DNA of 54,299 nt from positions 1 through 54,299 of the forward strand of contig JAJDHX010000005.1 of the NCBI GenBank assembly GCA_030266395.1, in the 5' to 3' direction. Source of the DNA: Selenomonadales bacterium OttesenSCG-928-I06 (lineage in GTDB: Bacteria; Bacillota; Negativicutes; Sporomusales; Sporomusaceae). The notes beneath the pieces are model-generated. The model worked only from the letters and a program-made list of their open reading frames with translations. It was not told the DNA's origin and did no database searches. The position numbers and the translations under genes are program-made. Positions 49,976 to 53,687 of the stretch are shown piece by piece. Numbering within the stretch: position 1 is the first letter of the stretch; each line of letters starts with the position of its first letter.

Positions 49976-50169
49976 ATATAGGCCTCCAAAAAATTATATA
50001 TTTATAACAATGTTTATAACTTATTTTAATATTATTATCTACTATCCTACATTTTTTGAAAAATGATTTCAAGTAGATTATTTATTTTATATTAGAAAAT
50101 AAGGTTTTGTAACAGAAGATTTAGTTTAGACATATATATAAATAGAATAAAAAGAGAGGGGGATCATGT

Positions 50170-50871
50170 GTGACCGACAAAAAGCTCAGAGCTTATATGA
50201 CTAATAAAAAGGGCAGTCTTAGTTTACCAGCAGGACCTCAAACAGTTGTTGTTCGCCAAGTAATAGGAGAACAAGAAAGACAAAAGGTGCTTGATGTTCA
50301 AATAAAAGTTCCTGAAAGAAAACCTGCTATTGAACAAATAGTAGATGTTTTTGTAAAGAATTTAAAAGTACTTCGCGTTGATGTTATCAATGATAGAGTT
50401 ATAGTTCGCGGCGATTTAGAAATAAAAGCTATTTATGTAGCTGCACTGCCTCAACAACCTGTTCATGCGGTTGAAGTAAAACATTATAAATTTACTCAAG
50501 AAGTTGATATCCCTGGTGCAAGAAAGGGTATGGATGCAGAAGCTAATGTAGTTGTAGAATTTGTAGATTATAATGTAGCTGAATATACAAGAGCTTATAA
50601 ATATAAAAACTTCGAAAACATGGATAGTAATTGTAGTTGCAACAGCTATTGTGATTCTTGTGATGATTATTGTAGTGATGACTGTGAAGATACTCCGGTT
50701 TGTGATGAAGAAGATACTTGCCCTTGCGAAGACACAAGAGAATTTGATGTATCCATTGTTTTAAAAATAGTGGCTAAAGTTATGGCGGATCGTGAAGTTG
50801 TAGTTGGTTATATTCCGCCTGCTGTGAAATCTGCTGTAAAGGCGAAATTACCTGCAAAACCTAAAGGATAA
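50170..50871 (+). CDS. SPOCS-domain (DUF3794) protein with cysteine-rich insertion
   Basis: The 233-residue protein has one SPOCS/DUF3794 domain at about 25-210, the domain of spore coat-associated SipL (VLDVQIKVPERKPAIEQIVDVFVKNL, DRVIVRGDLEIKAIYVA). Between the two domain halves lies an acidic insertion with nine cysteines in 32 residues (C155, 157, 161, 164, 168, 172, 178, 184, 186). Metal binding or disulfide cross-linking is plausible. GTG 50170 has GAGAGGGGG 8 bases upstream. There is no signal peptide. The next gene is a paralogue. The domain call is firm and the function is unknown. Confidence 0.8.
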   Translation: MTDKKLRAYMTNKKGSLSLPAGPQTVVVRQVIGEQERQKVLDVQIKVPERKPAIEQIVDVFVKNLKVLRVDVINDRVIVRGDLEIKAIYVAALPQQPVHAVEVKHYKFTQEVDIPGARKGMDAEANVVVEFVDYNVAEYTRAYKYKNFENMDSNCSCNSYCDSCDDYCSDDCEDTPVCDEEDTCPCEDTREFDVSIVLKIVAKVMADREVVVGYIPPAVKSAVKAKLPAKPKG

Positions 50872-50911
50872 ATTTTTAGCTTGAAAAATGAGGAAGAAGG
50901 GATGGTTTAAA

Positions 50912-51847
50912 TTGAAAAGTAAAAAGCCTAAGTCCCAGCTTGACTCCAAAAAAGATAAGGCTGAACTTAATAGACAGATAGATGTTACTTGTGTCTGTCA
51001 GGCCAATGTTGCTCCTCAGACTATTCAAGTGGAACAGGTATTAGGAGCTAATATGGCACAGCGGATAGTTGAATTTGACCTTGTTGTGCCAGAAAACAAG
51101 CCTGGCATTGAACAAATAATTGATGTTTATGTGAAAAACATAGAAATAACAGCAGCTGACATTATTTTAGACAGAGTTATTGTGCGTGGTTGTTTAGAAG
51201 TGAAGGTTTTATATGTGGCAGATCTTCCTGATCAGCCTGTTCATGCTTTTGAAAGAAAGAATGTTAAATTTACTCGTGATATAGAAATATTAGGTGCTGA
51301 ACCAGGAATGAAAGTCAATGCTGATACTATGGTTGAATTTATTGATTATGATGTTGATTATGAAGATGACGGCTGTACTTGCAAAGATAAAATTAATGTA
51401 ACTATAGTCCTAAAAGTTTGGGCAAGAGTTATTAACACTCTAAAAATGCAAGTTTATGCTAGTGAAATCCCAGGAGAAAAACCTATTGCTGTACTAGAAG
51501 AACCTATTATAGTGCCTGAAGAGCCTGTTGTGCCCGAAGAGCCTATTGAAGAACCGGGAGAAGGTGTATCTGGGGAAGACTTAGAGCAAGGCGAGGATTT
51601 TTATGAAGAAGAATATTTAGAAGAAGAAATAGAAGATTTAGAAGAAGGCATTCAAGTTATGCAAGTTACAGGAAATGTAGTTAATGTTAGAAATGGGCCA
51701 GGAACTAATTTCCCAGTTTTAGCAAAAGTAAGTAAAGGTGATCTTGTTAGTATAAGAGATCAAGCTTTTGGCTGGTTTAAAGTAACTTTAGCAGATGATT
51801 CTACTGGTTGGATTGCAAGCTGGCTTCTAACTAATGTTAAGGGATAA
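50912..51847 (+). CDS. SPOCS-domain protein with Pro/Glu linker and C-terminal SH3b domain
   Basis: This paralogue of the preceding gene has about 311 residues. The SPOCS domain spans about 35-185 (VEFDLVVPENKPGIEQIIDVYVKN, DRVIVRGCLEVKVLYVADL). At the place of its neighbour's cysteine cluster it has only a short CTC (155-157); CVC also lies at 27-29. A Pro/Glu-rich linker (about 191-244, EEPxxVPEEP repeats) leads to a bacterial SH3 domain (about 249-311, VVNVRNGPGTNFPVLAKVSKGD), usually a peptidoglycan-binding module. I prefer TTG 50912 (AAGAAGGG upstream); ATG 50888 is in frame but lacks a ribosome site. No signal peptide is evident. Confidence 0.8.
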   Translation: MKSKKPKSQLDSKKDKAELNRQIDVTCVCQANVAPQTIQVEQVLGANMAQRIVEFDLVVPENKPGIEQIIDVYVKNIEITAADIILDRVIVRGCLEVKVLYVADLPDQPVHAFERKNVKFTRDIEILGAEPGMKVNADTMVEFIDYDVDYEDDGCTCKDKINVTIVLKVWARVINTLKMQVYASEIPGEKPIAVLEEPIIVPEEPVVPEEPIEEPGEGVSGEDLEQGEDFYEEEYLEEEIEDLEEGIQVMQVTGNVVNVRNGPGTNFPVLAKVSKGDLVSIRDQAFGWFKVTLADDSTGWIASWLLTNVKG

Positions 51848-51966: not shown

Positions 51967-52776
51967 TTGTTGACTGCTATTGAATATTTAGGACCGGTAG
52001 GAATAGGAGCTACAGCTCCTCAAATGTTTAACGCAATTGATCATAATGATAATGATGCTGTAAAAACTTATATAGTTAAATTTGCTAATAATCGTCTTGG
52101 TGCAAAAGTTTTGGTAAACGAACTTTTAGCACTTAGATTTGGAAAATTGATAGATATCTGCTTTCCTTCGGGAGGCATTATAAATATACCTAAAGAATTG
52201 GTAGTAAACAACAGAAGATTATTGATTGCCGGATTTACATCAGGGCTTCATTTTGGGTCTCGCTTTTTAAGAGGCACTCAATATTTATGCAGACAAAATC
52301 TTCATCTTGCCCAAAATAAATCTCAAATGGCTGGAGTAATATTATTTGACCATATGTTTTATAATCTTGACAGAACACTAAACAGAAAAAATTTATTGAT
52401 AAGAAAAGAAAAAACAGGATATAAAATTTATGCTATAGATAATTCCCATTTGTTTCGTCGCGGCAGATGGAATGTAGATTGGCTTAACGAATTGAAAGAT
52501 GGTCTTACTATAAACCACAGGCGTTCGTTTGGGCTTTTATTAAAGCATTATTTATATCCTGAAGATTTTATTTCTTACGTAGAAGCTATTAAAGATATAA
52601 GTGATGAAGAAATAGATGAAATAATAAATTCTATTCCGCAAAAGTGGTTGCCTGATTTTGAAGAAAGAGTTGGTTTAAAAGAATTTATCGTTAAAAGAAT
52701 AGATATGGTAGATGAAATAGCATATTCTTTAATAGAATTAATCCCTGATGTACACGGGAGTTCCGACCCTGACTAG
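51967..52776 (+). CDS. HipA-like kinase-fold protein
   Basis: The 269-residue protein resembles the HipA-like kinase domain family (HipA_2). K38 in YIVKF fits the ATP lysine. The catalytic loop reads FDHMFYNLDRTLNRKNLLI with D135 and N142, and YAIDNSHLF supplies the metal-binding DN. It is shorter than HipA toxins, and no HipB-type antitoxin gene is present. The start is TTG 51967 (or 51970) behind AGAGG. Its 3' end overlaps the convergent L,D-transpeptidase gene by 39 bases. A phosphotransferase role is likely; the substrate is unknown. Confidence 0.75.
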   Translation: MLTAIEYLGPVGIGATAPQMFNAIDHNDNDAVKTYIVKFANNRLGAKVLVNELLALRFGKLIDICFPSGGIINIPKELVVNNRRLLIAGFTSGLHFGSRFLRGTQYLCRQNLHLAQNKSQMAGVILFDHMFYNLDRTLNRKNLLIRKEKTGYKIYAIDNSHLFRRGRWNVDWLNELKDGLTINHRRSFGLLLKHYLYPEDFISYVEAIKDISDEEIDEIINSIPQKWLPDFEERVGLKEFIVKRIDMVDEIAYSLIELIPDVHGSSDPD

Positions 52777-53235
52777 CGCAAAAACTTCTTCCACATTACT
52801 ATTATGCATTCTGATGCAGCCATTGGATACCATTTTTCCTATTGACCATGGTGCATTTGTGCCATGTATGCCATAAGAGTCGTAATTAAGTCCCATCCAG
52901 CGGCTGCCAAGAACTCCGCCGGGATTGGCAATTTTTGTGGCTATAGAATATTTGCCAACAGGAGTAGGTGCCGAAGGTTTGCCTATGGCAATCTTAAATT
53001 GTCTCAAAGGCTTATTGCCATCAAATAAAGTGAGTTGTCTTTGTGATTTAACAATTAATATATTTCCTTTAGCTAGGGCAAATTGTGATCTAATAGGTTT
53101 ACTGCGTTTAGGTTCTATTTCTTTTTCTTCAGCCTTCATTTCTTGACATAATTTAATTACTCTCTTTTTTTCATAAGGTAAGCCGCTATAAGTATCACTT
53201 AGTCTATAGGGAAGATAAATTTTTCTAACAATCAT
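52738..53235 (-). CDS. L,D-transpeptidase (YkuD domain)
   Basis: The 165-residue protein carries a YkuD catalytic domain at about 55-165 with HGTNAPWSIG (H124) and SNGCIRMHN (C140, R142). This family makes 3-3 peptidoglycan cross-links or attaches proteins to peptidoglycan. The N-terminal 50 residues are charged (EKKRVIKLCQEMKAEEKEIEPKRSK) and contain no evident signal peptide or membrane helix. ATG 53235 has AAGGAGG 11 bases upstream, and no alternative start lies between it and an in-frame stop upstream. Export is therefore unexplained. It overlaps the HipA-like gene tail to tail by 39 bases. Confidence 0.88.
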   Translation of the reverse strand: MIVRKIYLPYRLSDTYSGLPYEKKRVIKLCQEMKAEEKEIEPKRSKPIRSQFALAKGNILIVKSQRQLTLFDGNKPLRQFKIAIGKPSAPTPVGKYSIATKIANPGGVLGSRWMGLNYDSYGIHGTNAPWSIGKMVSNGCIRMHNSNVEEVFALVRVGTPVYIRD

Positions 53236-53420: not shown

Positions 53421-53687
53421 ATGGTAAAAACAAGCGATTTAAAAGTAAAAGAAGTAGTGTGTTTCACAGAAGGAAGGCGTTTGGGGAATATTACTGATTT
53501 AGAAATAGATGTGGAAACAGGAAAAATTACTGCAATAGTTGTCCCGGGGTTTTCGAGATTTTTAGGGATTTTGGGAAGAAGCGAAGATGTGGTTATTCCT
53601 TGGGAGAATATTACTAAGATAGGTACAGATGTTCTTTTGGTAGATTTAAGTAAACTTAAAAATTATAAGGGTTTAGCTGAAATTTAA
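53421..53687 (+). CDS. YlmC/YmxH family PRC-barrel protein
   Basis: The 88-residue single PRC-barrel protein (KTSDLKVKEVVCFTEGRRLGNITDLEIDVETGKITAIVVPG, then IPWENITKIGTDVLLVD) matches the YlmC/YmxH group, often conserved in spore-forming Firmicutes and annotated as sporulation-related, with no proven function. AAGGAGG lies before the ATG. Monocistronic, with a terminator at 53726. Confidence 0.9.
   Translation: MVKTSDLKVKEVVCFTEGRRLGNITDLEIDVETGKITAIVVPGFSRFLGILGRSEDVVIPWENITKIGTDVLLVDLSKLKNYKGLAEI

Follow-up and report, generated by a model that had tools for sequence, protein, structure and literature searches.

What does a pair of adjacent genes for SPOCS-domain proteins build in a member of the Negativicutes? 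The pair lies in a 54,299-nucleotide stretch of Selenomonadales bacterium OttesenSCG-928-I06 (hereafter the window), and an initial annotation of its sequence had described two SPOCS/DUF3794 paralogs that diverge at a single loop. The open reading frames (ORFs), their coordinates and their matches to the SPOCS profile PF12673 agree with that description. The first protein, P1 (50170–50871, plus strand; 233 aa, with a GTG start codon at 50170), matches PF12673 at residues 54–136 (50329–50577; E = 1.2e-14, 54.7 bits against a cut-off of 23.6). The second, P2, was listed as an ORF of 319 aa beginning at an ATG (50888–51847, plus strand); its true start is probably the TTG at 50912, which gives 311 aa, because a GA-rich Shine-Dalgarno sequence lies upstream of this codon and the starts of related proteins align with it. 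Its SPOCS match (51107–51355; E = 6.3e-15, 55.6 bits, same cut-off) is, as in P1, the only one in the protein.

AlphaFold models placed a six-strand SPOCS core in both proteins, with ten-residue pLDDT means of 73–96 across the core of P1. At the place where P1 carries a long insert, P2 has a loop that is short in all relatives and holds only the motif CTC (51374–51382). P2 instead extends into an acidic Pro/Glu linker, predicted to be disordered (51476–51676), and an SH3b domain (51677–51829), which was recognized by the SH3_3 profile PF08239 (E = 1.1e-11, 45.1 bits against a cut-off of 27) and, in its modeled form, by Foldseek matches to bacterial SH3 structures. All three of these features had been noted initially. 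The Pro/Glu composition of the linker is peculiar to this genome, the corresponding region being rich in Ser, Thr and Gly in relatives. Pfam profiles detected no LysM domain in either protein; P2 carries the SH3b domain and P1 neither module. Comparisons of P1 with the PDB, by Foldseek with the model (no match at E < 0.001) and by phmmer with the sequence (no match), did not tie its SPOCS fold to a solved structure. Sequence checks of P1 and P2 revealed no hydrophobic N-terminus, signal peptide or membrane segment. Because coat proteins are synthesized in the cytosol of the mother cell, the missing export signal fits a spore coat rather than an exported envelope layer.

To place the pair among its relatives, we compared 30 loci, the one in the window and 29 from related genomes. 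P1 and P2 were side by side at all 30. Scanning titled GTDB genomes yielded 38 loci, each either from a genome with a Negativicutes name (Sporomusa, Pelosinus, Massilibacillus, Lucifera, Anaerospora, Selenomonadales and Sporomusaceae) or from a metagenome-assembled genome (MAG) titled merely 'Bacillota bacterium'. The check proposed initially, whether the pair tracks sporulation genes across Negativicutes, revealed a strong association with SpoIVA, detected by TIGR02836. P1 was present in 53 and SpoIVA in 52 of 381 Negativicutes genomes; 50 had both, 3 P1 only, 2 SpoIVA only, and 326 neither (Fisher p = 2e-56, a value that ignores shared ancestry). Both were thus found in 50 of the 55 genomes with either, and the five exceptions are incomplete drafts (65–94%). 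The genome of the window, itself 72% complete, contains SpoIVA.

The region upstream of P1 is conserved as well. Alignment of the 30 loci revealed a promoter-like element, an ACA-type box followed after 16 bp by CATATATAT, with the same spacing at every locus and an invariant CATATATAT −10 part. In the window it spans 50111–50141 (plus strand) and reads AACA (50111–50114), 16 bp and CATATATATAA (50131–50141); nearly every locus has the form CACA-N16-CATATATATAA, the exception to the ACA-type box being L021, with CACT. A 37-base pattern derived from this region matched perfectly once and only once in each of seven genomes, every time upstream of P1, and its reversed control gave a single match in total. 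With one mismatch allowed, the promoter pattern occurred once in the window against 0.1 matches expected, and in one genome the sporulation gene yunB has a copy with a single mismatch upstream of it. A regular-expression search for a strict sigma-K/E consensus gave no match at this promoter, and the spacing of the sigma-E −35 box does not fit the element. Its −35 box and spacing fit sigma-K of B. subtilis, and its −10 box fits only in part, reading CATATATATAA and not CATANNNTA. Judged by the B. subtilis consensus, we predict that a mother-cell-type sigma factor, K or E, would transcribe P1. A strong, G-rich ribosome-binding site follows (50154–50162, plus strand; GAGAGGGGG here and AAAGGGGGG in most relatives), and a terminator-like hairpin stands after P2 (51875–51918, plus strand; fold z-score −3.6).

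Most loci with enough flanking sequence share the order P1, P2, a HipA_2 kinase-like gene and a reverse-strand L,D-transpeptidase gene. The kinase-like gene (51967–52776, plus strand; PF20613, E = 9.4e-15) is probably its own transcription unit. It was found in 27 of 28 SpoIVA-positive and 0 of 17 SpoIVA-negative Negativicutes genomes, and another copy is often present at a different site; one guess is that its product is a coat-protein kinase. The YkuD L,D-transpeptidase gene (52738–53235, reverse strand) is convergent with the kinase-like gene and overlaps it. Also near the pair is a gene for a PRC-barrel sporulation protein of the YlmC/YmxH family (53421–53687 of the window; TIGR02888).

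The genomes that carry the pair appear to lack SipL and SpoVID. We searched 37 genomes with PF12673, 30 of which gave matches. The triple-SPOCS and LysM arrangement of SipL was not detected in the sporulating Negativicutes examined, although a diverged SipL could escape the profile. Only one genome (G045) had two SPOCS matches in one ORF, of 438 aa and without LysM, and six sporulators of 96–100% completeness (G014, G017, G030, G032, G038 and G043) had no SPOCS protein beyond the pair. SpoVID (TIGR02907) did not exceed the profile cut-off in any of 23 genomes, which a diverged SpoVID could also evade; the four matches obtained were all below the cut-off and all at the LysM end of the profile. 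Neither P1 nor P2 matched TIGR02907. Outside the class, SPOCS proteins of the phylum are mostly of the SipL type. Across 399 genomes drawn from the phylum, the highest-scoring PF12673 matches outside Negativicutes were ORFs of about 500–600 aa. In 49 stretches examined, 46 ORFs had three SPOCS domains and LysM, 3 had three SPOCS domains and SH3b, one had four and one had two SPOCS domains with LysM; the remaining ORFs had three SPOCS domains without either module, or one or two SPOCS domains, several of them being cut at the end of the stretch.

A tree of SPOCS domains united all members of the Negativicutes pair (support of 0.998 when one SipL domain, L144 D1, is counted inside the group and 0.69 when it is left out). 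Within the group a P1 side (0.93) separates from a P2 side (0.87), which indicates that the duplication is old. We also considered derivation of the pair from one particular SipL domain; the pair grouped together and the tree did not single out a nearest SipL domain. In G045 a divergent pair accompanies the multi-SPOCS ORF (L068, L069), and this genome may represent an intermediate stage between SipL and the pair. Both of its pair genes, including the one for its SH3b protein, branch basally on the P1 side.

We propose that P1 and P2 serve Negativicutes as morphogenetic and structural proteins of the spore coat that the mother cell produces during sporulation, with P2 acting as a SipL-like adaptor and P1 as its partner; as a whole we consider this reading probable. 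Its parts differ in strength. The sequence data make a location in the coat very likely. That a one-domain P2 takes the place of SipL is, by analogy, about an even call. P2 would then be a reduced adaptor whose SH3b domain stands where SipL has its SpoIVA-binding LysM, and could anchor its SPOCS domain to either the base layer of SpoIVA or the cortex. PMC6436350 describes the LysM domain of SipL as binding SpoIVA and as needed for the coat to encase the forespore; a SpoIVA-binding role for the SH3b domain in the same position is drawn by analogy with it. Three SipL-type proteins of non-Negativicutes (L125 in G653, L173 in G607 and L177 in G755) have three SPOCS domains and, confirmed with Pfam, an SH3b domain in place of LysM. 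These proteins and the SpoIVA-binding LysM make it doubtful that, as initially suggested, the SH3b domain marks P2 as a peptidoglycan binder. P1 is most likely the abundant partner of P2, which it might join through the shared SPOCS fold to form the mass of a layer.

The pair could instead form an outer coat or exosporium lattice rich in cysteine, similar to CsxA or CdeC, with some unrecognized protein linking the coat to SpoIVA in place of SipL. The strength of the ribosome-binding site and the conservation of the promoter point to P1 as an abundant structural protein, several genomes have third P1-like copies with more cysteines, and Cys-rich spore-surface proteins of clostridia form disulfide-linked arrays (PMC7333573, PMC7677010). 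Against such a lattice, the six sporulating genomes above have no other SPOCS protein, P2 has a SipL-like layout, and SH3b occupies the LysM position in the three SipL-type proteins, and we therefore regard it as unlikely. In a Sporomusa genome (G008), six further divergent SPOCS ORFs are clustered (L128:4270–9099), one of them encoding 522 aa with 55 cysteines in CKPHHDDD-type repeats, and similar clusters occur in other genomes of Sporomusa.

The insert of P1 bears on how such a layer might be held together. All nine cysteines of P1 lie within 32 residues of an acidic loop (residues 155–186; 50632–50727, plus strand), as first noticed in the initial annotation; none of 20,000 residue shuffles of P1 placed nine cysteines in any 32-residue window. 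AlphaFold predicts this insert, between strands 5 and 6, to be disordered, and its position is the same in all orthologs. Its presence in close relatives was therefore upheld, whereas the cysteine count was not. Orthologous inserts are Asp-rich (18–34 acidic residues in the compared stretch) and contain 2–8 cysteines and usually histidine, mostly 9–23 residues of it. Loop composition varies widely, with six or fewer histidines in five relatives (L007, L008, L021, L026 and L029) and only 2 cysteines and 4 histidines in L026. With 9 cysteines and no histidine, the loop in the window has the most cysteine of the 30 loci, and it is P1 here that has lost the N-terminal cysteine (CTLG) of its relatives; in some more distant P1 proteins the loop is longer and the ORF contains as many as 23 cysteines. 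The conserved property is therefore a disordered, acidic loop bearing cysteine and histidine, and not nine cysteines, a composition peculiar to this genome.

Since the nine cysteines represent a local form of an insert whose conserved trait is richness in Asp, His and Cys, the loop can be read in two ways, and disulfide cross-linking is just one of them. P1 could be mainly a metal-binding coat protein whose loop stores or sequesters zinc, nickel or manganese without cross-linking. The loops of its relatives are rich in histidine and aspartate (for example, HDHDHDHD), and histidines outnumber cysteines in most orthologs; the loop in the window has no histidine at all, though, and every ortholog retains cysteine, which leaves a pure metal store improbable to our minds. 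In the reading we prefer, the disordered loop of P1 would cross-link neighboring molecules by disulfides, bound metal ions or both, hardening the coat, in keeping with the self-assembly of Cys-rich spore proteins (PMC7333573). Whether P1 touches P2 and cross-links in this way we rate as evenly balanced.

The proposal of an undescribed envelope or coat layer thus survives in its coat half, for a diderm Firmicute. A vegetative envelope layer, in which P2 would bind peptidoglycan and so hold a cross-linked sheet of P1, draws on the nearby reverse-strand L,D-transpeptidase gene and on the wall components that SH3b domains bind in many proteins, but we reject it as highly improbable given the lack of a signal peptide or membrane segment, the mother-cell-type promoter predicted upstream of P1, and the way P1 follows SpoIVA, down to the 326 Negativicutes genomes that lack both.

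Both proteins of the pair also end alike, in PKG in P1 (50860–50868, plus strand; PKG in 29 and KG in all 30 of the orthologs) and in VKG in P2 (51836–51844, plus strand; KG in 24 of 30). Among ORFs from the same kinds of loci, 64 of 111 SPOCS ORFs end in KG compared with 0 of 312 others, counts that are not independent as the sequences are related, and the KG persists in alignments where the preceding residues vary. Many clostridial-type SipLs also end in PKG or AKG, and SipL-type ORFs with a C-terminal KG include L119, L146, L150 and L182. We tentatively put forward, as a joint proposal that we hold to be somewhat less probable than not, that the KG tail common to P1, P2 and many SipLs is an unrecognized assembly or docking signal, and that sporulating Negativicutes build the coat without SipL or SpoVID, by a SPOCS system divided between two genes, where SH3b would replace LysM as the link to SpoIVA and the Cys/His/Asp loop would provide cross-links.

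P1 and P2 are a real, conserved and sporulation-bound pair within a known domain family. In the literature searched (on DUF3794 and spores, SipL and Negativicutes, and the Sporomusa coat or exosporium), we found no description of the pair, its arrangement or its SipL-free setting; the part of PMC7985256 covered concerns sporulation generally and does not describe it. For sporulating Negativicutes as a whole, the pair supplies candidates for the proteins of the base layer, could account for the lack of SipL and SpoVID, and provides a ready marker by which such bacteria can be recognized in genomes and MAGs. The exchange of SH3b for LysM and the shared C-terminal KG lead to specific, testable predictions on SPOCS docking.

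Among known systems, SipL of Clostridioides difficile, with three SPOCS/DUF3794 domains and LysM, shares with P2 the order of SPOCS followed by a small C-terminal module, and shares with the pair the lack of a signal peptide, the tie to SpoIVA-bearing sporulators and, in many cases, the KG end. It differs in having three SPOCS domains rather than one, LysM rather than SH3b, and one gene rather than two; the Cys/His/Asp insert belongs to P1. The three SipL-type proteins with SH3b resemble P2 in combining SPOCS with a C-terminal SH3b domain, but hold three SPOCS domains in one protein and occur outside Negativicutes. SpoVID and CotE, coat morphogens of Bacillus, are classed as SPOCS proteins like the pair (PMC10659427) but, unlike it, were not matched by PF12673 in a B. 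subtilis control. CsxA and CdeC, Cys-rich exosporium or spore-surface proteins of clostridia that self-assemble into disulfide-linked arrays (PMC7333573, PMC7677010), resemble P1 by description, without a claim of homology, and serve as a functional model for it, with the difference that P1 confines its cysteines to a single disordered loop within its SPOCS fold.
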